DNA from: a virus
IMG/VR virus record: IMGVR_UViG_3300006929_003032
Coordinates: 1-25,017 of that record
Reading direction: 5' to 3' (one strand)
Length of the DNA: 25,017 nt
The position numbers were made by a program, and so were the translations under genes. Below are positions 4,015-23,614 of this stretch, piece after piece. Position 1 is the first letter of the stretch. Every line of letters starts with the position of its first letter. Below the pieces are notes generated by a model, which saw nothing but the letters and a program-made list of their open reading frames with translations, was not told the origin of the DNA and did not search any database.

Positions 4015-4015
4015 G

Positions 4016-4447
4016 ATGAGTAATAACAACACATACCGTCTGGTCAGATTAGAACCCAGATGTTTAAGCGACAACCCCCAGTGTTGTTGCGAATTAGTAA
4101 TCGGCCTCACTGCCACTTCGGATGACAATGAGGGTAACTCTGCGTACATTGACGGAATCTGGAAACCGGAAGAAGGCACTATGCTAATGCTAAACGATTT
4201 AACTGCCGAGAAAACTTCAGAGATAGTTAATCAATTTGCAGCAGACCAAAATTGGTGGAGTAGCTTGGACGCTCAATTAGTAAGTCAGGCCCAGCAACCG
4301 ATTAATGCTCAAAACTTTGAAGCACCTACAGTGACTTTGGACACAACAGTTGAGCCAACACCAGAACCAGAACCAGTTACACCTGAACCAACACCTGATC
4401 CTGTTAAGGATGACTCTACAAATGATGAGGAGGTAAACGATGCCTAG
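4016..4447 (+). CDS. Unknown small acidic protein with Pro/Glu-rich tail
   Basis: This 143-residue protein starts one base after the tail fibre stop (TAAGATG), which implies translational coupling in the late operon. The N-terminal part contains a CCC cluster (PQCCCELV) and a few tryptophans. Residues from about 112 form a PEPEP-type repeat followed by an acidic end. I do not recognise a family. Its place between the fibre and the lysis-like genes would suit a small fibre-associated or late accessory protein, but that is inference only. Its 3' end carries the strong ribosome binding site for the next gene. Confidence 0.7.
   Translation: MSNNNTYRLVRLEPRCLSDNPQCCCELVIGLTATSDDNEGNSAYIDGIWKPEEGTMLMLNDLTAEKTSEIVNQFAADQNWWSSLDAQLVSQAQQPINAQNFEAPTVTLDTTVEPTPEPEPVTPEPTPDPVKDDSTNDEEVNDA
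4427..4433 (+). promoter_or_regulatory. Strong Shine-Dalgarno site for the 29-residue gene
   Basis: GAGGAGG lies six bases before the ATG at 4440, inside the end of the preceding gene. It is the best ribosome binding site I see in the window and is the main reason for calling the tiny gene that follows. Confidence 0.7.
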
Positions 4448-4529
4448 TGGCCCAGGAACATATCCTAAACCGGGTAGACCTAAGTCAAAGCCAACTGCAA
4501 GACCTAAAAAGAAAAGTGTTAAAAAATAA
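4440..4529 (+). CDS. 29-residue Pro/Lys-rich basic peptide
   Basis: The ORF begins MPSGPGTYPKPGRPKSKP and ends in a lysine-rich tail (KKKSVKK). It overlaps the end of the preceding gene by eight bases in another frame and has a near-perfect Shine-Dalgarno six bases upstream. Short MPxxGxY...KKK peptides are frequent in late operons of environmental phages, and their role is unknown to me. The strong positive charge would suit nucleic-acid or membrane-surface binding, but this is inference. The strong ribosome binding site and tight packing support a real gene. Confidence 0.6.
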   Translation: MPSGPGTYPKPGRPKSKPTARPKKKSVKK

Positions 4530-4540
4530 GATATAATATT

Positions 4541-4693
4541 ATGGATTTTGATTCAGTAAAAGTTTATTTGGCTAGTGTTGGAGGTATTGGCAACTGGTTT
4601 TTGTCCATAGATGTTTTATTAAAGTGTGCAATTTCTGTAGCCACTTTATTTTATATTATTTTAAAATGTAGAGAATTAATTAGAAAAGGGTAA
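4541..4693 (+). CDS. 50-residue single-span membrane protein, holin-like
   Basis: The protein begins MDFDSVKVYLASVGG and has one hydrophobic span at about residues 24-42 (VLLKCAISVATLFYIILKC), ending in a short basic tail (RELIRKG). One span, an acidic or neutral N-terminus, a basic C-terminus and a position just after the fibre gene fit small phage holins. Its stop overlaps the next ATG (TAATG), so translation is coupled. No Shine-Dalgarno is visible; the start is preceded by ATATAATATT. It could instead be another small phage membrane protein, since holin assignments by size and topology alone are weak. No endolysin is visible next to it. Confidence 0.55.
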   Translation: MDFDSVKVYLASVGGIGNWFLSIDVLLKCAISVATLFYIILKCRELIRKG

Positions 4694-5082
4694 TGGCAGG
4701 GGAATTACAAAACATATTTGACGGTATTTACTCAGCAGTAGTACACGCACAAAAATCAGTCGAAGAGAACTTATCCAATAATGTAAGAGATGGTTATTTT
4801 AATGAAGACGGAACTGCAAAGACTGTGAAAATGACGCTTAACAATAAAGAAGTTGAAGTGCCGTTGTTTACGTTAGTTCCTCATAACACTTTGAAAATAG
4901 ATACGTGTGAAGTTGACTTGGAAGTAAACTTGGATCACGACGGAGAAAAAGCAATTGGCTGTTTGGGTAAACTAAGAAAAAACAAAATGGCGAATATTAA
5001 AATAAAATTTTCCAGCACGAATCAGGCTGAAGGCATGGCGAGAGTTGGAGATAACCTAGTTAAATTAATACCTACAATATAA
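4693..5082 (+). CDS. DUF2589-like protein, short paralogue
   Basis: This 129-residue protein has the β-rich middle typical of DUF2589-like proteins (VPLFTLVPHNTLKIDTCEVDLEV). Its C-terminal EGMARVGDNL segment parallels the EGLARFTQML ending of the next gene, so the two are probably related. It lacks the Ser/His/Gly-rich insert seen in the larger neighbour. Its ATG overlaps the holin-like gene's stop, and AAAAGGG just upstream can serve as ribosome binding site. DUF2589 has no established function that I know of. A virion or accessory role is inferred only from its place in the late operon. Confidence 0.6.
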   Translation: MAGELQNIFDGIYSAVVHAQKSVEENLSNNVRDGYFNEDGTAKTVKMTLNNKEVEVPLFTLVPHNTLKIDTCEVDLEVNLDHDGEKAIGCLGKLRKNKMANIKIKFSSTNQAEGMARVGDNLVKLIPTI

Positions 5083-5086
5083 TATT

Positions 5087-5713
5087 ATGGCAGGAGCAGA
5101 TGATGCGCAGTTGAAGGATTTCCAAGGTCTACCGATCTCGGAACTCATCGTTGACCCGTTGGTCAGTGCCGCTAAAGGGCAGAAGAAATTAGCAGGAGTA
5201 ACTTTGGATTTTGTATCCTCGATTGGGTTTGAGCCTGATCCAGATGATCCAAAGAAAACCAGAACCCGTACCGTTGACGTAGAAGTTGAACGACTGATCA
5301 AAGGTCAAACTAAACCATTAAAGCAAATGGTGAAAATGCCTTTATTGACTATGGTCACGATACCTAATTTATCTATATCAGATGTGAAGGTACATTTTGA
5401 TATGGAGGTTAAATCTCATTCATCAAACACTGAGTCTTCAGAGAACACTCAGAAAGATGAATCCAAGACTGAGGGTCATGCTTCTGTAAGTGGGCATTTC
5501 TGGGGAGTGGGCTTTTCGGCAGGTGGATCTCATTCTAATTCACACACTGGAAGTGTAACAACGAAGTCGGAAAATACTAGAGAGACAGATTTTTCTGCTC
5601 GTTATTCTATTGATGTTGAAGCAACTCAGAATCCACCAGCGGAAGGGTTGGCTCGTTTTACACAAATGTTGGCTTCTACGTTAGAGCCAGTAGACACGGA
5701 AGCAGCAAAATAA
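5087..5713 (+). CDS. DUF2589 family protein
   Basis: The N-terminus (FQGLPISELIVDPLVSAA, then QKKLAGVTLDFVSSIGF) matches the helical start of DUF2589 proteins. A β segment follows (MPLLTMVTIPNLSISDVKV), then a low-complexity Ser/His/Gly/Thr stretch at roughly residues 107-160. The family-type ending is ENTRETDFSARYSIDVEA followed by EGLARFTQML. The length of 208 residues is normal for the family. It lies four bases after its shorter paralogue. The family is known from bacterial genomes and its function is not established. Finding a tandem pair in a phage late operon is the notable point. Confidence 0.7.
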   Translation: MAGADDAQLKDFQGLPISELIVDPLVSAAKGQKKLAGVTLDFVSSIGFEPDPDDPKKTRTRTVDVEVERLIKGQTKPLKQMVKMPLLTMVTIPNLSISDVKVHFDMEVKSHSSNTESSENTQKDESKTEGHASVSGHFWGVGFSAGGSHSNSHTGSVTTKSENTRETDFSARYSIDVEATQNPPAEGLARFTQMLASTLEPVDTEAAK

Positions 5714-5720
5714 TAATAAA

Positions 5721-6140
5721 TTGTTAAATACGGATATAAATATAAATCAACCAATTGCCAAGGCTGTTGAGTGGGCTGGGAATGAAGATTTTGATAATAC
5801 ATTTGGGTGGCATCTTCTGCATGGTTATGTGTGGAGTAATCCTAGTATTTTTCTTATGGCTCGTCCTGTCCCTAAACACAGTATTGAGAATGCGGGAGAA
5901 TTAGTAATTTATGACCGTAGTGTTTGTGATGTTTGGTATGTGTGGCTTGCGGCTGGCGTAAATCCTTTTCAAAAATTTTTAAAGGTAGCCCCGTTTAAGC
6001 TGCCATACGTAGCTTGGCATAGAGACACAGAAGAGGTTGAAAGATTTAAAATATGGTCTTGGGATCATTTTAATAAAGTAACAAAAAAATTAAGGACAAT
6101 AAGACATGGGAAGAAAAAAGCAGAAATACTTGAAGCATGA
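5721..6140 (+). CDS. Unknown phage protein, Trp/aromatic-rich
   Basis: The only start before residue 40 is the TTG at 5721; an in-frame stop at 5691-5693 rules out a much longer form. The 139 residues are rich in Trp and aromatics (WHLLHGYVWSNPSIFLMARP, VWYVWLAAG, YVAWHRD) and end in a basic helix (KVTKKLRTIRHGKKK). Its last 35 bases overlap the next gene in another frame. It sits between the DUF2589 pair and the structural genes, where small acyltransferase-like or virion accessory proteins often lie, but no catalytic motif is clear. Function unknown. Confidence 0.6.
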   Translation: MLNTDININQPIAKAVEWAGNEDFDNTFGWHLLHGYVWSNPSIFLMARPVPKHSIENAGELVIYDRSVCDVWYVWLAAGVNPFQKFLKVAPFKLPYVAWHRDTEEVERFKIWSWDHFNKVTKKLRTIRHGKKKAEILEA

Positions 6141-7140
6141 TTCAATAAATTATGGAGACATGATGAATAAGAATTTAGACGCTCAAGCAGGAGTGTTTGA
6201 TAGATATTTAGATTTAGAAAGTCGCTTCGGGGATCAAGTTACAAAGATGGGTTTGGATCGTGACCAAAAACACTCTGAGCAATTTTATGACATATTAGGA
6301 TACGGAGTAGATCGAATGGGTGATATGGCTAGAGGTCAACAATCTTTGGATCGACAAGCTAACATAGGTGCGCTTCGAGACTTAGGCCCACAAGCAATGG
6401 AAGCTTTTGGTGCAGCAGATCCGCGCCAAATGGAAATATCTAATATGTTAATGGACGATTCTATTGAAGGACTACAAAACCGTGGCAAATTAAGTAATAT
6501 TGATTCAAGACGATTAAGTCAGGATGCAATTGGATTAAAAAGTGCGATGGGTTTTGGTACTGGGCCGGAAACAATTGCTTATGCAACTGGTGAATTACAG
6601 CAAGGTCGTGAGCGGCGAATGAATCAATCAAGAAACAACGCCTATAGAGCGCAAACTATGCGTAATCAATTATACGGAAATCCGTTAATGGGATTGCTAA
6701 GTCAAAACGCTAATGTGAATCCGTTAATGGCACTTCAATCAAACTCACAATTGGGAGGCTACACTGATCAGGATGTATTAAATCCTGAATCTCCAATGGG
6801 AACACAACTGCAACTTGCAGATCGTAATGCGCGATTACAAACTAATATGGCTAATAGACAAATTAAGGCTCAGAACCGGGCTAATAAAGTAGCGAATATT
6901 ATGGATGGAGTAAAAACGGCATCTCAAGTTGCTACATTATTTTGTTGGGTAGCTAGGGAAGTGTATGGGTCAACAAATCCAAAATGGTTGCAGTTTAGAA
7001 GTTATATGATGATGGATTCGCCAAGGTGGTTGTTAAGAATTTATTTAAGGCACGGTGAGAGGTTTGCTCAATGGCTTAAAAACCATGCTTGGTTAAAGCC
7101 AATCTTGCGCAAATGGATGGATACAAAAATTAAGGACTAA
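6106..7140 (+). CDS. Probable virion structural protein with CFI-box-like C-terminus
   Basis: This 344-residue protein is mostly helical and rich in Gln, Asn, Met and Arg (for example MNQSRNNAYRAQTMRNQLYG), as is typical of internal virion or ejection proteins of podoviruses. The last ~60 residues begin FCWVAREVYGS and continue with an LQFR motif, two Trp residues and a basic end. This resembles the C-terminal CFI box (C-F-I-A-x-x-x-Y-G ... LR-x-F-R) found at the ends of many unrelated bacterial and phage proteins. The ATG at 6106 is supported by AAGGA about ten bases upstream and creates a 35-base overlap with the previous gene. The exact virion location is unknown; its place directly before the portal suggests a head-tail or internal protein. 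Confidence 0.65.
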   Translation: MGRKKQKYLKHDSINYGDMMNKNLDAQAGVFDRYLDLESRFGDQVTKMGLDRDQKHSEQFYDILGYGVDRMGDMARGQQSLDRQANIGALRDLGPQAMEAFGAADPRQMEISNMLMDDSIEGLQNRGKLSNIDSRRLSQDAIGLKSAMGFGTGPETIAYATGELQQGRERRMNQSRNNAYRAQTMRNQLYGNPLMGLLSQNANVNPLMALQSNSQLGGYTDQDVLNPESPMGTQLQLADRNARLQTNMANRQIKAQNRANKVANIMDGVKTASQVATLFCWVAREVYGSTNPKWLQFRSYMMMDSPRWLLRIYLRHGERFAQWLKNHAWLKPILRKWMDTKIKD

Positions 7141-7145
7141 ATAAC

Positions 7146-9215
7146 ATGGCTAAAGATTACGAGTTAGATTTAGAGGAATTGGTGGTTGAGTACAGTGAAG
7201 CATTGTCTTCGACATTGTTGACTCGACGAGATGAAAACAGAAGGGAGCGATTTAACGAGTGGTCGGGCCAAAGTTCTGATGGGCGTAAATGGAAACGTAA
7301 TCTGGGTAAAAACCCGGTTCCATTTGATGGATGCTCTGATGCGCGAATTCCTTTGGTTGATTCTTATGTTCAAGAAGATGTTGATATGTTGATGACATCT
7401 TTAAGGCAGATGAGAATTACAGCAAGCCCAACAGAAAGCGGGGATGCTAAACGTGCTTTTATGGTCAGCAATCTTTTGCGTTGGGTAATGGAAAACCAGA
7501 TGAAAGAGTTTTTCCATGAAGCAGAATTGGCAGCTAACTATTATTGTGAAAATGGTTTGGCTTTGGTGAGTGTTCTTTGGCAGCAGGAAACCAGTGCAGC
7601 TTATCGTGAAATTGACATGGAAACGATAGGTGCTTGGGCGGCAGAGCAGGAGCCTGACAGTGTGGGTGCTGGCTTGCCTGAAATAATAATGAACGAAGAA
7701 CTTGAAGACCAAGCAATGGTATTGGGTCGGGATCTTCTGGATGATGATTTACCTGATAAAGTAATTCGTAAAATTATAAAGGATCTACGTAATGATGGAG
7801 TTGCAGTTTATACTGCACCTGAATTAATAAAGAATCGTCCTGAAATAAAAGCGTTACGTGTTGGTGAAGATGTGTTTTTTCCACAAGACACTACAGATTT
7901 GCAAGATGCTCGCAGAATATTTTGGAGGCAATTTATGACTGCTGAACAGTTAAAAGATGCAAAGGACGCGCGAGGTTGGGATGCTGAATGGACAGATCAT
8001 GTTTTGGATCGGGCTGAAGGAATAAGTAATGCTGAGTGGGCTGGAGTAACAAATCGTAATCGAATCAACAGGCCCGGTTTAACTGATTTAGATACACGTA
8101 AATTGTATGAAGTAGTTCATGCGTTTGAACGTCGATGTGATGAAAACGGTGTGCCGGGTATTTATTACATTGTCTTTAATCCACATACGAGATCAACCGA
8201 TGGGGGTAAGCAGATTGTTGGTCGAGAAGAATTGTTAAATTACGGGCATGGTCAATATCCATTTGTTGCATTTAGGCGTGAGCATTTAAGTCGTAGGCTT
8301 GATGATAGTCGTGGGTATGGAGAAATCGCAGCAACTTGGCAGCGGCAGATCAAAACTGAATATGATCAAAGAACAGATCGTTCTTACCTATCGACCATGC
8401 CTCCATTGATGCACCCAGTCGGTCGTGCGCCTAGCAAGATCGGCCCAGGTGTAATGGTTCCACGTATGAGGCCGGATGATTATCAGTACATGGATTCTCC
8501 AAGGTTAGATGGGGGAAGCAAAGAGGTGGAGAATACAGTGCGTGAAATGGCTGATAGATATTTTGGCAGACCAGTTGGTAATGAAAATCAATTTTATGCC
8601 CGGATGCGTCAGCAAGGAATGATTTCCAAATGGTTGCGTTATTGGAGTGAAATAGGATGCCAATGTTTGCAGTTGATGCAGCAGTTTATGGATGACGAAA
8701 TTTATTTTCGTGTCGTTGGATCTAGGCAAGCTGAACCGATCCGGGTTGGTCGTGACGAAGTTCAGGGTCAATATGATGTAATGGTTTATTACAATGTTGC
8801 CAATTTGGACATGGAGCTAGTTAAAGAGAAATTAAATCTACTTAAACTTGCGGTTGAGTTTGATGTTAATGGAGTGGTGGATCGGACTTCTGCAATGGAA
8901 GTGTTGTTTGAGTTTATTGATCCGCAACTTGGTGAGCGCTTATTAAAGCCTGAAGAACAGGCAAGCCAACAAGAGATCGAAGATGAAAGAACAGCCTTCG
9001 CGCAAATTGCTGCCGGAGCAGATGTTGATATTAAACCGGGACAAGCTCATCAGTTAAGGCTTCAAGAATTACAACGCTTACTACAAAGCGAAACAGCACA
9101 ATCAGCAATGCAAGGAGACAAGAGTTTTGCAGATCGGGTCATCAAACGGGCAAAACAGCATGAGCATCAGTTGCAACAAAGTGAAAATGCCAAAATAGGA
9201 AGGTTAGGTGCTTAA
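7146..9215 (+). CDS. Portal protein (large, P22/SU10-like)
   Basis: At 689 residues this is in the size range of large podovirus portals. The N-terminal region (NPVPFDGCSDARIPLVDSY, then QEDVDMLMTSLR) is the opening I associate with this class. The central part includes YGHGQYPFVAFRREHL, RGYGEIAATWQRQIKTEYDQ and a PPLMHPVGR loop. A long helical, Gln-rich C-terminus matches the barrel/coil end of such portals. Portals form the dodecameric DNA channel at one head vertex. The start at 7146 follows an AAGGA-containing leader. The terminase normally found nearby is not in this window. The family call is from remembered conserved segments, not from a search. Confidence 0.82.
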   Translation: MAKDYELDLEELVVEYSEALSSTLLTRRDENRRERFNEWSGQSSDGRKWKRNLGKNPVPFDGCSDARIPLVDSYVQEDVDMLMTSLRQMRITASPTESGDAKRAFMVSNLLRWVMENQMKEFFHEAELAANYYCENGLALVSVLWQQETSAAYREIDMETIGAWAAEQEPDSVGAGLPEIIMNEELEDQAMVLGRDLLDDDLPDKVIRKIIKDLRNDGVAVYTAPELIKNRPEIKALRVGEDVFFPQDTTDLQDARRIFWRQFMTAEQLKDAKDARGWDAEWTDHVLDRAEGISNAEWAGVTNRNRINRPGLTDLDTRKLYEVVHAFERRCDENGVPGIYYIVFNPHTRSTDGGKQIVGREELLNYGHGQYPFVAFRREHLSRRLDDSRGYGEIAATWQRQIKTEYDQRTDRSYLSTMPPLMHPVGRAPSKIGPGVMVPRMRPDDYQYMDSPRLDGGSKEVENTVREMADRYFGRPVGNENQFYARMRQQGMISKWLRYWSEIGCQCLQLMQQFMDDEIYFRVVGSRQAEPIRVGRDEVQGQYDVMVYYNVANLDMELVKEKLNLLKLAVEFDVNGVVDRTSAMEVLFEFIDPQLGERLLKPEEQASQQEIEDERTAFAQIAAGADVDIKPGQAHQLRLQELQRLLQSETAQSAMQGDKSFADRVIKRAKQHEHQLQQSENAKIGRLGA

Positions 9216-9304
9216 TGAGAAAATTTTTCTCACGAGGATTCGATCTAAGAGCAGTTTGGGTTCTGTTTAATATAATAGGTGCAGTGAAATTAAAGTCCTT
9301 TTAG
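9215..9304 (+). CDS. 29-residue hydrophobic/basic ORF coupled to portal
   Basis: The ATG overlaps the portal stop (TAATG), and AGGAAGG lies about 12 bases upstream. The product begins MRKFFSRGFDLRAVWVLFNI, a basic start followed by a hydrophobic helix. The first bases also form a small hairpin (TGAGAAA/TTTCTCA, 9216-9232) covering the start. A coupled start and ribosome binding site support translation, but the ORF is short and no family is recognised. It also fills what would otherwise be a 128-base gap in a tightly packed operon. Confidence 0.45.
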   Translation: MRKFFSRGFDLRAVWVLFNIIGAVKLKSF

Positions 9305-9343
9305 CGATGTAGCTAGAAGGCAATAAAAGGAAATTAAAATAAA

Positions 9344-10192
9344 ATGGCGGGATTATCGTTTTCAAAAGGTGGTATAGGGCAAGTTCAGGCAATGCCTCAG
9401 AATTTTGCACAAATGGTGAATGCAACAGCAAATGTTCAAGCTCAATCTTCAGATATAAGTACGACTATAAATGATGCACTTAAACAACGTGTTGAAGAAA
9501 AGAAATTTAACACAAAGATGGGGTCGCTCGCTAAATCAGGATTAAAAGCTATTCAAAAATTTAATCCAAAAGCGTTGCCCTTTGAAGATGGGATAGACAT
9601 TGATGATATGAGTAATGTTGATGCTATGTCTGCATGGGAAGGTTTTAATCAATCGATGCAATCGCAGCATCAGCTTTTAGAAAATCAAAAGCTGCAAGCA
9701 GAAATAAATAAAAAGCCATTTGAGCCTTCTGTTAAGACTGTTGTAGACAAGGATGGTAAGGAGCATCATTTTGGAATAACTTCACACAATAGTGCTCAGT
9801 ATTTAAAATCTTTACCTACTGGAGTAACTGGGCAAGTACCTATATCTGTAAATATTAAAGGAGAGGGTGGTGATATGTCAGCGGTGTATCATCCAGACAC
9901 AGGAGAATACAGTAATTTTAGTAAGATAAAAAAAGAAATTCATCCACAAGATTTTGACTTTGATAACAATGGTGTACTGGATGAAACAGAAGGGGCAAGT
10001 TGGTTAGATACTATAGCAGTAGAAGATCCAGATAAAGCCACTTTCCGTGGTTTAATGACTCCTACTTATCCTTTCAAATACGCTCCTAGAAAAGGAAGTT
10101 CTAATAAGTCAAAGCCAAATAATAAACCAAAGTCTGAAGTTAGTCCTTGGGATCTTTACAACCAGAGAATCAAAAAACAAAAAGGTAAATAA
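9344..10192 (+). CDS. Probable virion protein with a single EF-hand loop
   Basis: The 282 residues start MAGLSFSKGG and contain a Gln-rich helical region (about residues 95-125). A β-like middle leads to a canonical 12-residue EF-hand loop, DFDNNGVLDETE, at residues 205-216: D, D, N, G, L, D and E stand at loop positions 1, 3, 5, 6, 8, 9 and 12. The C-terminus is a basic, disordered-looking Lys/Asn/Ser stretch. The stop is immediately followed by the ATG of the giant gene, so the two are probably co-translated. It may be a partner of the giant protein within the virion. No family is recognised beyond the calcium loop. Confidence 0.6.
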   Translation: MAGLSFSKGGIGQVQAMPQNFAQMVNATANVQAQSSDISTTINDALKQRVEEKKFNTKMGSLAKSGLKAIQKFNPKALPFEDGIDIDDMSNVDAMSAWEGFNQSMQSQHQLLENQKLQAEINKKPFEPSVKTVVDKDGKEHHFGITSHNSAQYLKSLPTGVTGQVPISVNIKGEGGDMSAVYHPDTGEYSNFSKIKKEIHPQDFDFDNNGVLDETEGASWLDTIAVEDPDKATFRGLMTPTYPFKYAPRKGSSNKSKPNNKPKSEVSPWDLYNQRIKKQKGK

Positions 10193-13100
10193 ATGTCTGA
10201 GGTACTTAAATTCTTTAGAGAGGAAATTGATCCTCGGTTTGGAGATGTTAATGATCGGGAGTTAAGTGATTTTATTAAAAATGAATATCCTGATTTTTTA
10301 CAAGATGAAGGATTTAAGTCTTTCGTTTCTGAAATGGAAAGTACCCCGCCGGATATTCCTGATGAATTAACGGGTTATGAAGATCCTTCCTTTTTAGAAA
10401 AAATATTTAATAAATTAAACTCTGGCAAAGTTGGAATGGAGCCAACTGGAGGAGTTACTTTTGATGTTAATCCTATAGCACAACCGGATCAGGAACCAAA
10501 ACCAGAATTGCAGGAGCCTGATATTCTTGCTGATGATATTGGTAAGCCTGTTACGTTTCAGAATAATCAAGTTCCATTATTCATGCGTGAACCCGGAGAT
10601 GTTACCCGTAAAAGTTCTTTTAGAGAATTATATGGTAAAGGAGATTCCCCAAGTTTATTGCAGCGACATGAAGAAACTGATTGGGAAGCTACTGCTGAAG
10701 GGATGCGGGAGACTGATCCTACACGGGCTATACCCGGAGGTGCGTTACAAAGTAAAGCGGGTATCGAAGCAGTTGAAGCAGGGCGTAAAGCTAGAATGGC
10801 TGAAGCAATTGATAGGGAAAAGCAAAAGGCATTAGAAAAAGGGGATAGTGTTATGAGTTATTGGCTGGATCGGGTTCCTTATTTAGGAGGTCTTAAACAA
10901 GCCAATGAATTAGCTTTAACTTATGAAGCGGGTGAGCGTTTAAATAAAGGGGATTATAAAGGGCAATTTGCTTATGAGGATTACGAAAAGGATGTTGCAA
11001 GAATTGGTGAGTATATGGCTAATCTTGAAACTGAAGAAGCCAAAGGATGGTTTCGTAAGGCTGGAGATTTATTAACATCTACTCCAGCTTTTGGTGTTGA
11101 AATCGCTTCTACTTTTGGAGTGTTTAGAGGGGGAGCAAAAGTTACTGAAAATCTTGTTAAGAAAGCTGTTTCTGAAGGGATAAAGAAAAAATTAAAAGGA
11201 ACATTAACTGCTAAAGCTGCAACAGCAGGAATGCGTGGTGTTGGTATTGTTGGTGGTGGTATGACTCAGGCATTTACTCAGCCACAACATATTGCCAAGA
11301 ATTTTGCTGAAACATTAGCCAGTGAAAAGATACAATTATCAAAGGATGATCAAAATCAATTAAAGGCATGGATAAGTGAAGAAGATCCAAAATTTTTAAC
11401 AGCCTTATATGAAGGTTACGCGAAGACTGCCGTTGAAATGGTGTCTGAGCAAATGGGGTTAAAAGCATTTAAATCTTTAGGTAAGGGAGCAGGGGAAGTG
11501 ATGGAGCGTTTATCCCCAGGTTTTAAAGCTGCAATTGCTAGACGCTGGTTTAAAAGTAATCCAAAAAAGAAAGCAGACGCATTTTTTACTGAAATTAAGA
11601 ATCGTGGTTGGAACGGTGTTTTTGGTGAGATGATGGAGGAAAGGTATGGAGAGTTAGGTCGAGCCGCATTAACTAGAGATGAGTTACCTGATCGCACTGC
11701 TAAAGAATGGGGAAGTCATCTTCTTATGGAAGCTTCAGTGTTTAGTATTTACGGAAAAGGATTACGTAAAACTGGGGATCTTTATAATGAGGCATCTTTT
11801 AATCAGTGGATGGATACAATAGCTGATGCACAAGCTACAGCATTATCGTTACCTATAGAACGTGGTAATCAATTTGTAAGTGATTATGAAAATACGTTCT
11901 TCAAGGATGATAGCGCGGAATCAGATGAGTTGCCTCCTGTTGTAATACCTATACCAGAAGAGAGTCCAGATCAGGTAGATGTACCTGAACCTGAAGTTCA
12001 ATTAGATCAGGTTGCTCCAGTAGAAGATCCAACAGAAGGAGAATTAACAGTAGAAGAAGTTTCTGATACCTTAGAAATTGTAGAAAAGCCACCAGTAGAA
12101 GAGTCAAAGGTAGAGGAGCCTGTCAAGGATCAAGAACTAATCGAGGGTCAATCTTATCTTTACCCGGAGGTAAAATTTGATGATCTGATTAATAATGGGG
12201 TAGAGATAGGATTGACCCTCGAACAGTCTCGCGAGTTTTTTAAATTGGCTGTTGCGACAAGCGAAGCGGAAAAGAAACAAAAAGAAAAAACGAAAGACCC
12301 GGTAACGGGCAAAGAATTTAGTGCTGATGAACTAATGAATCAGTTGATAAGCGAGGGCAAGCCAAAGATGGGCGAGGAGTTTTCTCGACGTCGCGGTTAC
12401 ACTAATGAGCAAATAAAAAATTGGAATAGGCGAATGGAGTTAATTAAAAAGTTAACTTCCGTTCAAGGGGTGGACATGGCGGCCTTGCAAGCATTGGAAT
12501 ATGATATTACTTCTGCCGTGATTTATCCAGAACTTGCAAAAGGGCATGGTAGGAGTGTAGCTGAATACAAAACAGCTATTGATAAATTAAAAGAGAAATG
12601 GAAAAACAAACAAATATCGGGAGAAGCATACAAGGCTCAGTTGGAAGGACTAAAAAACTACAGTGAACTAATACTACCAAAATCCGTAGAGAAGCGTTTA
12701 AATGTAGAGTTAAATAAACTACCTGTTATAACTGATGCACCAAAATTTGAAGGCAACACTTTTAAGGTTTACCAAGGATCAGGGAGGAAAGATAAAAAGT
12801 CAGTTTATGCGGAAGGTGCTGAAGGGCCAATTTTAGGAGAGGGAAATTATTTTGCACAAACAGAAGATCAAGCAAAAATTTATGGGCCAAAAATAAAGAA
12901 AGTAACGGTTAAATTAAATAATCCTGCAATCATAAATAATGATGAGGATCTAATGCAGTTTGCGCCTGAAAGTTATTTAGGCGCAATCCCTAATCAAGCT
13001 GCCAACATAAATGCGTTAATGAATTCTGTTCGTACCAAGATGGAGGAGCAGGGGCATGACGGTGTTGTTGTAAATGTTTCCATGTTTGATGTAGATGATG

Positions 13101-16100
13101 CTGGGAAATCACTTAAAGGATTAGCTAGGTTATTTGGTCATTCACAAATAATTAGTTTTAAAACAAAAGAAAACAAAACAGAACCCGAAGTAGACACTGG
13201 TGAACTTAGTGAAAGTAAGGAGCCAAAGAAAATCCAAACTTTACGGGCAAAATTAAAGAAAGCAGAAGTTGGCTATTATGAAATGGACAGTGATAAGTCT
13301 GTAACATTTCAGAAGAAAGCCTTAGATAAAAAGGTAAAGGCACAAAAAGCATTAGATAAAGCGTTATTTGATCATTATAAAGATGATATAATTTTAAGGG
13401 CCAAAGAGTTTTCTGGTTGGGTAGCGCAGAATCCTGATTCAGATGAATTAAGTGAGAAGTATGCAGATTTTAAAAAGTTTGCAACGGAACGGGGAATGAA
13501 TTCTGAGCAATTCGATACTTTATTGGAGGAATATCAAAGCGAGGAAAAGGTTGAAGAGGCTAAAAAAGATGTTCCCCCTCCAAGCACAAAAGCTACCCCG
13601 GCAAATTTTAAAAAGCAGAAAGCGTTTTTAATTGATTTGGTTAACCAAGCAATTAAGAAAGCGCCTACACAAGAAAAAGCAAAGGCATGGAAGAGTAATA
13701 AATATGTAACATTTACCGTTCCTGAAGATGGTGAATTTAAAATTATTAACACTAAAGAAACTTTAAATGAATTTAAAGTATTGGTTAATAAAAAAGGAAC
13801 AGGATTTCCAACTGAAATTTCAAAATATCAAGCGCCGAAATCTCCACCTAAAAATCCTAGGGTAATTCCTGCATTAGGTATAAATATTACACCAAGTAAG
13901 GCTAAAACAATTTTATCACCGTTTACTATACGTAAAACAATTTCGACGCGAGCTAGAAAACAGGAATCTTGGACAGAGGTAGCAACTGTTGAAGATGGGG
14001 TTATGTTTGCGACTGATTCTACGTCAATGGTTATTGCGGAAGTTCCTAATGCAAAAATAGATCAAAATATTAAAGATGAAAATGCCCTGAAGTCTTACAA
14101 GACAATGTTACAGTTTGCGCGACCTGGGGCAAAAATTGCAGGGTATGATACAGCAGATTTAGCCGGGTTAATGCACAAGGCTTTAGGATTAAAATCTGAT
14201 AGCGATGATATTGTTACTGTTTCTTTTTATTCCGGTCAAAACGGTTGGAGTGTCCAAGCAAAAAACAAAGAGGGAGAAACTTTTCAATATGGTAATGAAG
14301 GAGAATTAATTGTTTCTGTAAATGCAGAGCGAGTTCTTAAAATTGCCCGTGCTGCTCGTCAATTAGGTAAGGAGTATATGTCGATTCATATACAAGAAGT
14401 TCAATCTCAAGATCAAATTACAGATACAAGTCCAGTTATATTTCAGGCTCCGGGGTTTACTTCTGCTTTAATGCCAACAATGGATAAAGATGAAGGTACG
14501 TTTAAGAAAAGCAGTACAGTTAAAGACATTGGAGATGCGCCTTTAGCAAGTGTTGAGCAATCTACTTTACCGCGCAAAATTGAAGCGCCCCATTATAAAA
14601 CCGGGCAAGTTGTCGGGTTGCAGGAGATAAGAGAATTTATTTCCAAAGCATTGGATATTCCTGTTACTGAAGGAATAAGGGGCAAGAAGTTCTTGGGATT
14701 GTTTTATCCATTTAGGGAAACAATCAAAATGAAAAAGATCAACGACATCCCTACATTGGCGCATGAGGTTGGTCATTATTTGCATTATATAATGTTTCCG
14801 GGGGGAATTAATAGGGTAAATCCTACTGCAAGTGATTTTGGTAAGGAGTTTGATAAGGAATTAATGGAGTTAGGAAAAGTTACTTCACTTCCATCTTATA
14901 GTGATGGTGATGTCCGAAAAGAGGGTGTTGCAGAGTTTGTTCGCCTTTATATGACTGAAAGAATTAAAGCAGTCGAAAATGCTCCAGTATTCTTTAAATA
15001 TTTTGAGGAAGAATTAACAAAGTTTCCTCAGATAGATAATATCCTACAAGAAGCAACTGGAATGATCGAAAAGTATATTGGTCAAAGTTGGTTTGATAAA
15101 ATAACAAGTCATTTTGGGGTAAGGGGTCAAAGGTTAATGGGTAAGCTTTCACCATCAGCTTTTTTGCGTAAGTTTAGTAACAATTGGGGCAATGAAAACG
15201 CACCGATTGAACGAGCAATAAAACAGTTAAAAGATTATGGGTTGGAGGTTGAAGCTGAAGAGGATGCTTATGAGTTAGTTAAAAATTATGTTGGAGGTTG
15301 GCGCGGTAAAGTGGATTATTCACTTGAATACCGTCAACTGGATGCTGATGGAAATGATGTAGGCCCATCTTTTAAAGATGTTTTGTCTGGGGTGGATGAT
15401 TTTTTAGAGTTTCAGGTTTATTTGGTTGCTTTACGTGCCATTGAAAAGAATGCGCAAGGCAAAGAAACAGGAGTAGACATTCCTTCAGCCAAGCAAGCAG
15501 TTGAAAAGCTGAAGAATAAATATACTGAAGCACAGCAAAAGTTAGATAAATTTTTAACTAACGAATTAACCATGTTGGTTGATGCTGGATTTTTAACTGA
15601 CAACGAGTTTGATATAATTAAGGATGGTAATCAGTTTTATGTACCGTTCCATCGCGTACAAGAGCGTGTAGGAGGAAGTTCAGGACTTGCAGGAGAAAGT
15701 TTCGTTGATTTAAGTAAAGGAGGCTTAAAAGGCTTTTATGGAAGCACATTAGCAATTTTGCCTCCATTGGAAAGTATTATTAAAAATATGTACGTAACCC
15801 GTGATTTGGTTGAACGTAATCGTATTGCCAAGGCTTTTATTGATAATACAGAAGGGGTTCGTGGAGGAGGTCGAATTGCTGAACCTGTGCCTAAAAAAGT
15901 TAAACCAATTGAAGTTTCAGATGAAGAATTTAGATTTGCTTTAAAGCAACTACAATTAGAAGACCAGATTGAAGATTTTGATTTGGAAGATTTACTTGAT
16001 GGCAAGGATCTTTCAATGAGAATTTGGAGGGCAGGAAAAACATCTAATGCAGCAGATGGTGTTTTTAGTGTATGGAGAAACGGTAAGCAGCAATATTGGT

Positions 16101-17842
16101 CAACAAGAGATCCTGAGTTGTATCGTGCATTATTAATGCAGGATAATGCTGCAACAAAATTTTTAAATAAATCCAAACTATCATCTTTTTTAAGTGTTCC
16201 GGCTAAAGTTTTAAGAGCGGGAGCAACTTTAACAGTTGAGTTTATGGTAAGAAACCCTATGAGGGATCAGGTTGGAGCAGCAACTTATTCAAAATATAAC
16301 TACATCCCTTTATTTGATGGTATTAAAGGTATATATCATACCCTTAAAAAAGATAAGTTATATCAAGACGCATTAAAGAGTGGCGCTATGTATTCAGGAT
16401 TAGTTTCAATGGATGATCCTAATGCTCTTAATAAAAAATTAGAAACCATTGCTCCAAGAAGTTTATATCAAAGATTAAAACCTTGGACTAATCCGTTAAA
16501 ATATTTACGTACTGCAAGTGAATTAATGGAACAGGCAAGTCGTATGCCTGAATTTCAAATGGCTCAAAAAGCAACTGGATCAAATTTACAAGCTGCCAAT
16601 GCTTACAAAGATATTACTTTAAATTTTAGTCGTATGGGTCAAATGGGAAAAATATTAAATAGATTTATCCCGTTTTTTAACGCTGGAATACAAGATACCA
16701 GTAAATTTTTTAGAGAACACAAAAGTCGTCCGGTACAAGTAATGACAAAAGGGTCTTTATGGATAACACTTCCATCAATTTTACTTTGGTTTTGGAATAA
16801 AGATGATGAAGAGATTCGCAAGCTACCAACTTGGCGTAGGCGAGGTGCTTGGAATATTAACTTTAGAAAAATTTTTGATGAATTAGGCATCGATAATTTT
16901 AATAAATTTGAATCTGAGTTTTTAAGTTTAATTCCAGGTGAGGATGATTTTATTATGTCCATACCTAAACCTTTTTTATTAGGTCATATTTATGGAACGA
17001 GTGTTGAGACTGCTTTGGATGAAATTTATGACAAAGATCCAAACGCAATTGAAAAATTTGGTAATGAATTACAAAGGATGTTGCCTACTCCTTTAATTTG
17101 GGACAGTTCAAAACCTTTTCCTATTCAAGCAAACCCTTCAATGTTTCCACAAGCAGCACTACCTTTTATTGAATCTGCAACTAATAAAAAATTCTATTCA
17201 GATAAGCCACTTGAAACCCAAGAACAGTTGGGTAGGGAGGCTTATACACGGGCAAATCCGCAAACCAGTTTAATCAGCCAGTTTGCTGCGCGTAATCTTT
17301 ATTTTGGAACAGGAGTAAATGTAAGTCCGATCCATTTTGACCATTTTGTAAATGGTTGGTTTGCTGGGCTTGGAAAGTACGGATTGGATATAATGGACAT
17401 TGGTTTAGCTAAAATGAAACTAGCAGATGTCCCTGATGCGCCTGAAGTAAGTAAACTTGAATATATTGGTGTTCGTGCCTTTTTTAACACACGTTGGCAA
17501 CCAAGTGATGATGTCCGTCATTTTTATGACACATTAAATCATGTTGAAAAAATGGTTAAAACAACAAGGGCTGAGTGGGAAGATGTCGATCAAAAATATT
17601 TAAATAAATATAAAGATCGAATTGGTTATTACGTTTTAAATGAAAATGTATTAAAATCTTTAAGAAAAAAACGTAAAGCAATGGGGGATATGACTAAAGC
17701 TATGATTAGAATTCAGGCTGATAAAAAACTTACATCAAGGGAAAAAACTGAAGAACTATTAAAATTTAAAGGAATAAAAGACGATATGGCTTTAGAAGGT
17801 TTAAAGCTATTTCATGCTGAAGACGTTAAAATGACTAAATAA
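10193..17842 (+). CDS. Giant polyvalent virion protein (ART-like, clamp-like, zincin and LPD38-like regions)
   Basis: The 2,549 residues read as a polyvalent phage protein. Residues ~284-370 are hydrophobic and Gly/Ala-rich. Residues ~577-650 are a Pro/Glu linker. Residues ~856-990 look like an ADP-ribosyltransferase of polyvalent proteins (VYQGSG, GEGNYFA, AKIYG, KLNNPAI, GHDGVVV). A charged coiled coil follows at ~1010-1090. Residues ~1224-1431 resemble a sliding-clamp fold (GVMFATDSTSMVIAEV ... FTSALMPTMD). HEVGH at 1524-1528 with a downstream Glu near 1577-1581 indicates a zincin metallopeptidase. Residues ~2008-2223 carry an LPD38-type region (FMVRNPMRDQVGAA, ASELMEQASRMPEFQ, ILNRFIPFFNAGIQ). 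Such proteins are thought to be packaged and delivered with phage DNA. The ATG directly abuts the previous stop, with AAAGG upstream. It overlaps the converging - strand gene by eight bases. Confidence 0.85.
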   Translation: MSEVLKFFREEIDPRFGDVNDRELSDFIKNEYPDFLQDEGFKSFVSEMESTPPDIPDELTGYEDPSFLEKIFNKLNSGKVGMEPTGGVTFDVNPIAQPDQEPKPELQEPDILADDIGKPVTFQNNQVPLFMREPGDVTRKSSFRELYGKGDSPSLLQRHEETDWEATAEGMRETDPTRAIPGGALQSKAGIEAVEAGRKARMAEAIDREKQKALEKGDSVMSYWLDRVPYLGGLKQANELALTYEAGERLNKGDYKGQFAYEDYEKDVARIGEYMANLETEEAKGWFRKAGDLLTSTPAFGVEIASTFGVFRGGAKVTENLVKKAVSEGIKKKLKGTLTAKAATAGMRGVGIVGGGMTQAFTQPQHIAKNFAETLASEKIQLSKDDQNQLKAWISEEDPKFLTALYEGYAKTAVEMVSEQMGLKAFKSLGKGAGEVMERLSPGFKAAIARRWFKSNPKKKADAFFTEIKNRGWNGVFGEMMEERYGELGRAALTRDELPDRTAKEWGSHLLMEASVFSIYGKGLRKTGDLYNEASFNQWMDTIADAQATALSLPIERGNQFVSDYENTFFKDDSAESDELPPVVIPIPEESPDQVDVPEPEVQLDQVAPVEDPTEGELTVEEVSDTLEIVEKPPVEESKVEEPVKDQELIEGQSYLYPEVKFDDLINNGVEIGLTLEQSREFFKLAVATSEAEKKQKEKTKDPVTGKEFSADELMNQLISEGKPKMGEEFSRRRGYTNEQIKNWNRRMELIKKLTSVQGVDMAALQALEYDITSAVIYPELAKGHGRSVAEYKTAIDKLKEKWKNKQISGEAYKAQLEGLKNYSELILPKSVEKRLNVELNKLPVITDAPKFEGNTFKVYQGSGRKDKKSVYAEGAEGPILGEGNYFAQTEDQAKIYGPKIKKVTVKLNNPAIINNDEDLMQFAPESYLGAIPNQAANINALMNSVRTKMEEQGHDGVVVNVSMFDVDDAGKSLKGLARLFGHSQIISFKTKENKTEPEVDTGELSESKEPKKIQTLRAKLKKAEVGYYEMDSDKSVTFQKKALDKKVKAQKALDKALFDHYKDDIILRAKEFSGWVAQNPDSDELSEKYADFKKFATERGMNSEQFDTLLEEYQSEEKVEEAKKDVPPPSTKATPANFKKQKAFLIDLVNQAIKKAPTQEKAKAWKSNKYVTFTVPEDGEFKIINTKETLNEFKVLVNKKGTGFPTEISKYQAPKSPPKNPRVIPALGINITPSKAKTILSPFTIRKTISTRARKQESWTEVATVEDGVMFATDSTSMVIAEVPNAKIDQNIKDENALKSYKTMLQFARPGAKIAGYDTADLAGLMHKALGLKSDSDDIVTVSFYSGQNGWSVQAKNKEGETFQYGNEGELIVSVNAERVLKIARAARQLGKEYMSIHIQEVQSQDQITDTSPVIFQAPGFTSALMPTMDKDEGTFKKSSTVKDIGDAPLASVEQSTLPRKIEAPHYKTGQVVGLQEIREFISKALDIPVTEGIRGKKFLGLFYPFRETIKMKKINDIPTLAHEVGHYLHYIMFPGGINRVNPTASDFGKEFDKELMELGKVTSLPSYSDGDVRKEGVAEFVRLYMTERIKAVENAPVFFKYFEEELTKFPQIDNILQEATGMIEKYIGQSWFDKITSHFGVRGQRLMGKLSPSAFLRKFSNNWGNENAPIERAIKQLKDYGLEVEAEEDAYELVKNYVGGWRGKVDYSLEYRQLDADGNDVGPSFKDVLSGVDDFLEFQVYLVALRAIEKNAQGKETGVDIPSAKQAVEKLKNKYTEAQQKLDKFLTNELTMLVDAGFLTDNEFDIIKDGNQFYVPFHRVQERVGGSSGLAGESFVDLSKGGLKGFYGSTLAILPPLESIIKNMYVTRDLVERNRIAKAFIDNTEGVRGGGRIAEPVPKKVKPIEVSDEEFRFALKQLQLEDQIEDFDLEDLLDGKDLSMRIWRAGKTSNAADGVFSVWRNGKQQYWSTRDPELYRALLMQDNAATKFLNKSKLSSFLSVPAKVLRAGATLTVEFMVRNPMRDQVGAATYSKYNYIPLFDGIKGIYHTLKKDKLYQDALKSGAMYSGLVSMDDPNALNKKLETIAPRSLYQRLKPWTNPLKYLRTASELMEQASRMPEFQMAQKATGSNLQAANAYKDITLNFSRMGQMGKILNRFIPFFNAGIQDTSKFFREHKSRPVQVMTKGSLWITLPSILLWFWNKDDEEIRKLPTWRRRGAWNINFRKIFDELGIDNFNKFESEFLSLIPGEDDFIMSIPKPFLLGHIYGTSVETALDEIYDKDPNAIEKFGNELQRMLPTPLIWDSSKPFPIQANPSMFPQAALPFIESATNKKFYSDKPLETQEQLGREAYTRANPQTSLISQFAARNLYFGTGVNVSPIHFDHFVNGWFAGLGKYGLDIMDIGLAKMKLADVPDAPEVSKLEYIGVRAFFNTRWQPSDDVRHFYDTLNHVEKMVKTTRAEWEDVDQKYLNKYKDRIGYYVLNENVLKSLRKKRKAMGDMTKAMIRIQADKKLTSREKTEELLKFKGIKDDMALEGLKLFHAEDVKMTK

Positions 17843-19712: not shown

Positions 19713-21155
19713 TTAGGATAATTTAACTGAAACTGCTTTACGAGTCATGTAGCGGCCTACATAGAATTTCTCAGTAATTTTAATACTGGCGTGGCGCATA
19801 TACTGCTGGGCAGCAATTGGGGAGACTTGAGTGAATATTTTAAAGCCAGTGTAAGCTCGTAGTTCATGGAGCAAATTAACCGTGTCCCAGCCCCACTTAC
19901 GCATTAGCTTGCGCAGTTCATTACCTACGATCTCATATCGGTAACTGTAAGTTTTGCCTAAAAGATATTTATCAGGCAATTTTTCCAGCCACGGAGTTAT
20001 TTTCTCAGCGGCCTCATCAATTATCGGTATTTGGTATTCATCGCCATTTTTACCTATTCCAGTGAAATTAAGTTTACCATCAATTTCAACAATATCAGCC
20101 AGTGATTGATTACACATTTCTTTTAATCTGCATCCTGATCCAACTATGCCCCAAAAAAGAAGATAAACGTGGATCTTTAAAAGATCCTTCTTAGATGATT
20201 TATAGGTTGGCAACCTAACCCAATATCTATCCAAATCGCATTTTTCCATTGATGCGTATTTTTGGATTTCACGGAATGTGGTTTTAATGCACTTGTCACT
20301 CGGCGCTTTGTACTGTCGTTGGTTGGCGCTTGCGCCGCTTACTGCCTGTTTTTTAAAATCATCTAATTTTAGCCAGTTAAGTTTTAAACCGTGATCATCA
20401 AGGCGAGTTTTTAATGAACCGTCTATGTCCCATAGAGCGCCTTTAGCCATTTTAACCATTTTAGCGGCGGCATTGGTTGCCCGAATTCTAACCCTTTTGC
20501 ACTCGTTGCTATCCTTTCCGTGCTCTTTGATTGCGTCTGGTAACACCAAACCCACTCTAAAATCGCGGTATCGTTGAAATAAATGAGGGGTAAATAAGGC
20601 TTCTACGGCAATTTTATCGAATGATTGGCCGGGATAAAGCGCTTCAGCGAGCGTTTTAACGCACCGCAAACCCTTCTGAGCGTGTGATTGTGTCACTGTT
20701 GATTCAGGTTTAATGGTTTCAATTGCTTCAATTAACTCCTGCAATTTTGGTAGGTACTCCTCGCGGCTACGGTTTTTGTACCGTTTCTTTTCGTCAGGCT
20801 CATCAAGCCAGTTTGTTATGGCATGATCAATTGCATAATTTAATTTCGAGCTACCGCAATTTCGCTTGTATTCTTCTTTATTAACTCTTCCTCTAAAATA
20901 CCAGCAAGCTGAATTACTTTTATTTAATTTATACATCACCCACAATCTTGAGTTGTAATAAAAATATTTTTTATAAGGCAGTTCTTTACCTTCCTTATCC
21001 AAGGCAGGAATGACATCCCTTGCTTTGAAGGATGCTCCCGGCGGGATCTTCGCCTTTTTGAGTCCGTGACTGATGTCTCTGAATCGGAGTGATAATATTT
21101 TGTCATCATCCAACTCCATGTTAATTGCGTTGTTGTTTTTCATGTTCAAATCCAT
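19713..21155 (-). CDS. int: Tyrosine recombinase phage integrase
   Basis: The protein catalyses site-specific recombination between attP and the host tRNA-Asn gene. Numbered from the ATG at 21155 (480 residues), the catalytic set is R343 (GSGCRLKEM), H430 and R433 (HELRAYTG), H455 (YMRHASIKITEKF) and nucleophile Y465, with GKNGDEY as the β-hairpin lysine region. The N-terminal half is long and basic, as expected for arm- and core-binding domains. A TTG at 21176 and an ATG at 21143 are alternative starts; the latter has GGAT six bases upstream. The start overlaps a tandem 11-bp repeat that is probably an integrase arm site. That overlap would let the enzyme affect its own expression. The gene lies about 190 bases from the tRNA fragment, the usual integrase-attP arrangement. 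Confidence 0.9.
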   Translation of the reverse strand: MDLNMKNNNAINMELDDDKILSLRFRDISHGLKKAKIPPGASFKARDVIPALDKEGKELPYKKYFYYNSRLWVMYKLNKSNSACWYFRGRVNKEEYKRNCGSSKLNYAIDHAITNWLDEPDEKKRYKNRSREEYLPKLQELIEAIETIKPESTVTQSHAQKGLRCVKTLAEALYPGQSFDKIAVEALFTPHLFQRYRDFRVGLVLPDAIKEHGKDSNECKRVRIRATNAAAKMVKMAKGALWDIDGSLKTRLDDHGLKLNWLKLDDFKKQAVSGASANQRQYKAPSDKCIKTTFREIQKYASMEKCDLDRYWVRLPTYKSSKKDLLKIHVYLLFWGIVGSGCRLKEMCNQSLADIVEIDGKLNFTGIGKNGDEYQIPIIDEAAEKITPWLEKLPDKYLLGKTYSYRYEIVGNELRKLMRKWGWDTVNLLHELRAYTGFKIFTQVSPIAAQQYMRHASIKITEKFYVGRYMTRKAVSVKLS

Positions 21156-21175
21156 TCCGCAGTTATTCCGCAGCA
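21154..21175. repeat. Left tandem 11-bp repeat, candidate integrase arm-type site
   Basis: ATTCCGCAGTT is followed directly by ATTCCGCAGCA, two 11-base units differing only at the last two positions. A close match lies 315 bases away on the other side of the tRNA-like core. Paired tandem sites with about one helical turn spacing flanking a core are typical of arm-type integrase sites. Confidence 0.6.
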
Positions 21176-21197
21176 ATCCACCATTAGATCGGTTAAG

Positions 21198-21363: not shown

Positions 21364-21413
21364 TGGCTCCTGAGGTAGGACTCGAACCTACAACCTATTG
21401 GTTAACAGCCAAT
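21364..21413 (-). other. attP core: 3' half of tRNA-Asn(GTT)
   Basis: On the - strand the 50 bases fold as the 3' part of a tRNA. There is a 5-bp anticodon stem (ATTGG/CCAAT) with loop CTGTTAA (anticodon GTT, Asn), a 5-base variable loop, a T arm GTAGG-TTCGAGT-CCTAC, a 3' acceptor strand CTCAGGA, discriminator G and CCA. The bases further 5' show no D arm or matching TCCTGAG acceptor strand, so it is not a complete tRNA. Phages that integrate into tRNA genes carry such a 3' segment to restore the host gene. Phage-type genes lie on both sides, so this is attP, and the inferred target is the host tRNA-Asn gene. Confidence 0.85.
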
Positions 21414-21468
21414 TTCACTATCCACTTTAACCCCGGTTTTATTGGGTGAAACGCACTTCGGAATTGCT

Positions 21469-23023: not shown

Positions 23024-23614
23024 CTACGGATTAGCTTTGAAGAACGCCCTTGCGAAGCCGCGCGGGGTTTGACTGCGCATTTCTTTTGTTCGCTCAGACT
23101 TGCCCCCGTACTTGCTCCACATCTTAGAACCTAGCACGGGCGGCAATTCCTTTTTTTCTGGCTCGTTAAACTTACCCCAGAGACAAGTATATTTTGTGTA
23201 TTGTTCCTCGCGTTGCTCGAACTGATTAAGCCACCCGGCGAATTCGTAAGGGTGGAAGGAATAATCTTTTTTACCAATCCAATCACGCAAGCGGCCAACC
23301 GGGTTCTCAAGCACCCAAAACGCGGGGTCATATATTGCAACCGTTCTAAGACAGGCATCAACTAGCGCGAGATTGTCGGTTAATTTTTCCGGCGTTTTTT
23401 CGTGTTTAGATTTCCAATGACGCGCACCCGATCCGGCGAACTCCGTGCAGGGTGGAGCCATTAAAACTCCATGAACTGGATCGTTAATTTTTGGGAAGGT
23501 GCGAACATCAAAACCAAGTTTGATATCCACTTGGATCACCTCGTATCCGTTTTCTCGGTACGGTTCAGACCAGCGGCCCGAATAGTCGCAAAGCGATAAA
23601 ATGACCTTACTCAC
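23024..23614 (-). CDS. Minimal C5-type DNA cytosine methyltransferase
   Basis: The enzyme would transfer a methyl group from S-adenosylmethionine to cytosine C5 in DNA. Motif I is SLCDYSGRWSEPYRENGYEV, followed by VDIKLGFDV. Motif IV is MAPPCTEFA with the nucleophile C56. LENPVGRLRDW (E103-N104-P105) corresponds to motif VI, with Pro where the usual residue is Val. The end, TPRGFARAFF, resembles the closing motif. At 196 residues it is much shorter than typical Dcm-type enzymes and has little room for a target recognition domain. Small versions like this occur in many phages, where they may protect phage DNA from restriction. The GTG start overlaps the preceding stop (GTGA). Confidence 0.75.
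   Translation of the reverse strand: MSKVILSLCDYSGRWSEPYRENGYEVIQVDIKLGFDVRTFPKINDPVHGVLMAPPCTEFAGSGARHWKSKHEKTPEKLTDNLALVDACLRTVAIYDPAFWVLENPVGRLRDWIGKKDYSFHPYEFAGWLNQFEQREEQYTKYTCLWGKFNEPEKKELPPVLGSKMWSKYGGKSERTKEMRSQTPRGFARAFFKANP

Follow-up and report, generated by a model that had tools for sequence, protein, structure and literature searches.

A giant polyvalent phage protein with an ART-like segment, a zincin and an LPD38 core: a probable ejection protein

Why would a phage place a protein of 2,549 residues next to its virion genes, and what might so large a polypeptide do? The window analysed here is the whole record of a virus contig, 25,017 bases in length, from a marine phage. An earlier note on this DNA had pointed to a reading frame at 10193-17842 encoding 2,549 residues, and both the frame and its translation were recovered exactly, as one unbroken ORF from ATG to stop. 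Several unrelated domains lie in this one polypeptide (LPD38, a zincin and an ART-like segment; Table 1), and it is by such a combination that large polyvalent proteins are recognised. The phage-type members of the class, which include ART, zincin and LPD domains, were described in 2017, and LPD38 was listed as phage-only (Iyer et al. 2017, PMC5512222). We propose that the window protein, as a member of this class, is probably an internal virion (ejection) protein, one that would carry cargo into the host.

Table 1. Features of the giant ORF and the genes before it, with residues of the 2,549-residue protein and positions in the window.
Feature	Residues	Position	Strand	Basis
Portal protein gene		7146..9215	+	tblastn
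282-aa gene, directly upstream of the giant ORF		9344..10192	+	relatives found only in the same phage population
2,549-aa large polyvalent protein		10193..17842	+	ORF, translation; residues 1-812 identical in L002
Possible short N-terminal tag	~1-45	10193..10327	+	weak similarity
Weak LPD14-like match	411-497	11423..11683	+	PF18827
ART-like segment	853-988	12749..13156	+	PF18760 below cut-off; Q861/Y886/D956
Claimed sliding-clamp segment, orphan	1225-1445	13865..14527	+	database scans, AF2, profile test
Zincin metallopeptidase domain	1464-1614	14582..15034	+	homologs, AF2 model, structure match
Conserved, mostly helical C-terminal core	1660-2549	15170..17839	+	relatives, alignment, AF2
LPD38	2247-2418	16931..17446	+	PF18857, E=5e-25

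Does the reading frame represent one gene? The 2,549-residue ORF is genuine. The earlier note had itself raised the possibility of an assembly fusion, which as the main explanation of the ORF was rejected. A partial chimera, in which unrelated genes were joined between residues 813 and 1460, is highly improbable in our judgement. That interval is covered by a single contig, and a search for its relatives found none. Against this, the frame is open throughout, its base composition is fairly uniform and shows no abrupt step, and residues 1-812 are encoded at 100% identity by an independent contig, L002. The junction between the zincin and the core is judged natural because the alignments with relatives from Thalassomonas phage BA3, Vibrio phage vB_ValP_FGH and 41E34 run through it uninterrupted.

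The most secure domain lies near the C-terminus. As read from its sequence, the assignment of LPD38 is certain: the match to PF18857 scores 89.1 bits against a curated cut-off of 27 (Pfam). The earlier note had expected an LPD38-type region at residues 2000-2230, so that the domain stands but its position was about 200 residues off. LPD38 forms part of a longer core, the last ~900 residues, which is encoded by at least 563 viral stretches (contig scan) and has homologs in 152 phage records (tblastn). Among viral predicted structures, 75 match the core at E<=1e-3. An AF2 model of the zincin plus core (residues 1455-2549), built from an alignment of 66 sequences, reached a mean pLDDT of 79 and a pTM of 0.74. 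The structure matches listed for the core are filled by zincin and long helices, and neither T7 gp16 nor any solved ejection protein is among them.

In the relatives, this helical core is the constant C-terminal module, often with a zincin before it. In the window protein the zincin domain, which the earlier note had placed at residues 1470-1640, is well supported by motifs and by the predicted fold. The HEVGH motif occupies residues 1524-1528 and EGVAEF begins at 1577; both are kept in Thalassomonas and Vibrio phage relatives. HExxH together with a downstream Glu in the following helix is the signature of a zincin-like metallopeptidase. Among the LPD38 relatives listed, about 30 have HExxH at the matching position. 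The predicted domain comprises, in model numbering, a helix (22-33), three strands (37-39, 48-51 and 56-59) and helices at 65-80 and beyond. The first 160 residues of the model match the lethal-factor-type zincin 4dv8 (Z 8.8, 134 aligned residues, rmsd 6.6), while certhrax and IrrE/PprI zincins appear lower in the ranking. The 2017 polyvalent-protein paper tied the zincin of phage N4 to this same best-matching structure (PMC5512222).

What lies upstream of the constant module? The relatives align with the window protein over the zincin and the core and not upstream, and in those that look complete the length before the match varies between ~200 and over 2,600 residues. When 23 relatives were scanned with Pfam (all fetched via the core, so that they carry LPD38 by construction), the domains found were SLT, lysozyme, methylase, SNF2/helicase, ParB, PBECR3, Zeta-like, His-phosphatase and ART. 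Even where the zincin is shared, the part before it differs: BA3 has a methyltransferase, and L014 starts like a transglycosylase. The earlier note had described the domain set as unusual and its order as worth describing. None of the relatives fetched showed the exact order, but cargo that varies was already known for this class, as was its ART, zincin and LPD content, and the window protein is one more example.

The ART-like segment is the candidate cargo of this particular protein. Scanned in isolation it matches PF18760 (ART-PolyVal) with E=7.3e-5 and 24.0 bits, below the curated cut-off of 31.2, and a Pfam scan of the whole protein gave no ART-PolyVal match. The catalytic triad of ART-PolyVal is H-Y-D (PMC5512222). 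In a pairwise alignment with the relative encoded on L030, Q861 replaces the strand-1 catalytic His and Y886 is kept; D956 is assigned as the triad Asp from its motif only. Because of the score below the cut-off, the change of His to Gln and the placing of Asp by motif, we name the segment ART-like only. The resemblance is thus weakly supported at the level of sequence, and the segment, lacking an intact triad, is left outside the ART-PolyVal family. The earlier proposal of an ADP-ribosyltransferase-like segment at residues 840-1000 is thus borne out weakly. The L030 relative (2179-12030) is an LPD38 protein of 3,284 residues; it has HExxH three times, and the YHGT motif of its ART is intact.

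To most of the first ~1,450 residues no domain is assigned. A match to PF18827 (LPD14-like) falls below the cut-off of 27 (E=0.029, 14.8 bits). The first ~45 residues resemble the N-termini of LPD38 proteins from Vibrio, Shewanella and Thalassomonas, weakly and in register (X14, E=0.16).

Could the protein also carry a sliding clamp? Residues 1220-1435 had been read in the earlier note as possibly clamp-like, and a working DnaN-like clamp would hold the protein, or else a replication factor, on the incoming genome. We regard this as unlikely. Searches of Pfam, PHROGs and PDB sequences gave no clamp match in residues 1160-1460, and PF02768 was not found in the window. Relatives of the segment were found neither in phages and plasmids (tblastn) nor in viral and genome contigs (scans), and its single-sequence AF2 model was uninformative (pLDDT 36). 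One set of clamps for comparison combined nine full-length DnaN sequences and two short phage clamps; the other was a profile of 33 short phage clamps. Local hhalign against these clamps gave scores inside the null, with the end of the segment aligned in register with the clamp C-terminus, a point in favour of a clamp; the global mode of hhalign produced meaningless overlaps. The HMMER clamp-profile score was also inside the null, and the best local match lay in the ART region instead. A further argument for a clamp is a custom profile-global alignment against the 33 short phage clamps, in which the segment outscores all other stretches of the protein (34.5 versus 15.0 for the next unrelated stretch). 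Of 1,500 random tiles 9 scored as high, as did 11 of 1,000 shuffles; the corresponding p~0.01 is optimistic, as the segment had been chosen for its looks. The segment lacks the RYYLNG, ATDGH and PD motifs that short phage clamps share and retains only ATDS and MP. Judged by sequence, an embedded DNA sliding clamp is possible yet not supported, and with the custom profile as the only one of these approaches to give a signal, the claim was dropped. A short DnaN-like phage clamp is encoded at 501-1049 of L287, a contig of metagenome 3300006735, to which L002 belongs as well.

The position of the gene also bears on its role. The portal gene (tblastn E=5e-23 to annotated portal proteins and E=1e-87 to a protein of phage C75C1) lies 1 kb upstream, and the giant ORF can therefore be placed within a virion gene block. 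The surrounding late and packaging genes also include a Peptidase_S74 tail-fibre gene on the same strand. This tail-fibre-like ORF (1-4014, +) is open at the contig start and has the chaperone domain at its end. The portal gene follows it, and no capsid gene was recognised in the interval; by comparison with relatives this is an unusual arrangement. For a 344-residue protein (6106-7140, +), the CFI-box C-terminal match is weak (E=0.05), and relatives of it were not found. For the 282-residue gene no relatives were found beyond the same phage population. Beside homologous portal genes on the viral contigs fetched, no homolog of the giant protein, or of its ART/clamp stretch, was found. LPD38 was likewise not found in C75C1, the closest portal relative, in a search where the positive control gave no signal either.

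Other genes of the window lie on the minus strand. A tyrosine integrase gene occupies 19713-21176, and ~195 bases upstream of it an Rfam tRNA match (21371-21433, minus strand, 35.7 bits; no call by ARAGORN) is possibly a tRNA attachment site or a remnant of one. A DNA methyltransferase-like gene (PHROG 757, E=3e-52) is found at 23024-23614.

Three Pelagibacter phages (HTVC034P, Lederberg and HTVC204P) and ct8d5349 share a gene order among the relatives: an annotated internal virion protein (B-like), a gene for ~500-590 residues, and then the homologous gene, which directly precedes the tail fibre. A position at the end of a set of three internal virion genes fits these Pelagibacter-phage relatives; such a set is not evident in the window. 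HTVC034P gp44 (1,229 aa), the last of its ejection-type gene set, is 28% identical to the window protein over the core (E=1.7e-76), but it has no zincin, a short N-terminal part and other upstream genes. In T7, the third ejection protein is gp16, the function of which has been described (PMC8954989). Its proposed role is alike, and some relatives of the window protein hold the third place in an ejection gene set. The likeness is by analogy only: no sequence or structure match between T7 gp16 and the window protein was obtained, and the transglycosylase present in some relatives is absent here.

The reading as an ejection protein is the most likely one, backed by LPD38, by the large number of viral stretches that encode the core, by the swapped upstream domains and by the neighbours of the relatives. 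Against it, the giant gene of the window stands beside a portal gene and a 282-residue orphan, rather than the small plus ~600-residue pair of the Pelagibacter phages, and the giant protein has just one hydrophobic stretch, a weak one at residues 293-311.

The strongest outside support for a packaged ejection protein comes, by analogy, from Burkholderia phage JC1. Its LPD38 protein gp69 was detected in purified virions by mass spectrometry with 51 unique peptides (PMC9144972). JC1 gp69 (DarB-like, 4,515 aa) and the window protein are both giant and late, and both have an LPD38 end after which opposite-strand genes follow (PMC9144972). They differ in their cargo: N-terminal LT-like, YtxK-like and COG4646-type in gp69 (PMC9144972), ART-like here. 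Together with the relatives that lie beside internal virion proteins, the gp69 proteomics makes it plausible that the window protein, too, would enter with the phage DNA, as the earlier note had expected of polyvalent proteins.

The same relatives raise the question of whether the protein acts mainly against host defences, as a DarB-like factor, instead of as an ejection protein. JC1 gp69 and relatives are annotated as DarB-like antirestriction proteins, and several relatives contain methylase or SNF2 domains. Pfam detected neither domain in the window protein, however, nor does it hold any specific pointer to countering defences, and what is conserved is the core and not the cargo. A mainly anti-defence role is thus quite unlikely in our view, and we retain the ejection reading.

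How might such a protein work? The last ~1,090 residues, the zincin and then the helical LPD38 core, would form a conserved chassis, most likely the part that guides the protein into the head during packaging and later through tail and host envelope. The first ~1,450 residues would be cargo that varies between phages, here with a divergent ART-like segment. At the boundary between the two, the zincin probably cleaves the chain and so frees the cargo, either ahead of packaging or once inside the host. The cutting of polyvalent chains by their zincins was proposed in the 2017 paper (PMC5512222). Cleavage is not assured, because the N4 virion RNA polymerase, which bears a zincin, is packaged uncut (PMC5512222). 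For the window protein, then, packaging, ejection, self-cleavage and any activity of the cargo are inferred. Compared with the phage-type polyvalent proteins described in 2017 (PMC5512222), it is likewise a very large late protein that combines LPD38, a zincin and an ART-like segment, but its ART-like segment has no strand-1 His and its N-terminal part is mostly domainless.

The N4 polymerase is of interest for a further reason. N4 gp50 ends in C1, with HExxH, and then C2, which is mostly helical and without a known structural relative (PMC12633501). Both proteins thus pass from a zincin to a long helical domain at the C-terminus; gp50 is packaged and ejected, and its cargo is a polymerase, unlike that of the window protein. 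Could the zincin plus core be homologous to C1-C2, so that the polymerase and the polyvalent proteins are built on one ejection chassis? The order and the similar size (PMC12633501) would fit, the zincin profiles align (P=0.001), and core residues ~2134-2189 align with the extreme C-terminus of gp50. This terminus is involved in the top three of 108 tile pairs, two of which overlap that part of the core, and a focused tile pair exceeded 150 column shuffles (P=0.006). On the other hand, hhalign gave a probability of 1-2% for the whole domain or a sub-domain, zincins alone are widespread, and LPD38 was not found in N4, in a search that had no positive control. Homology with N4 seems to us somewhat doubtful; for the core and C2, the alignments are suggestive, a lead rather than a result.

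A broader idea, for which we hold slightly less hope still, is that the zincin plus LPD38 core is a single chassis for hundreds of polyvalent proteins and for the N4 polymerase, with polymerase, ART, methylase and helicase as interchangeable cargo. Should the C-terminal module prove to be a delivery chassis in general use, it would offer a testable handle on how very large enzymes are pushed through a narrow tail. The same chassis, if the reading is true, would predict which of the uncharacterised giant phage proteins enter the host first.
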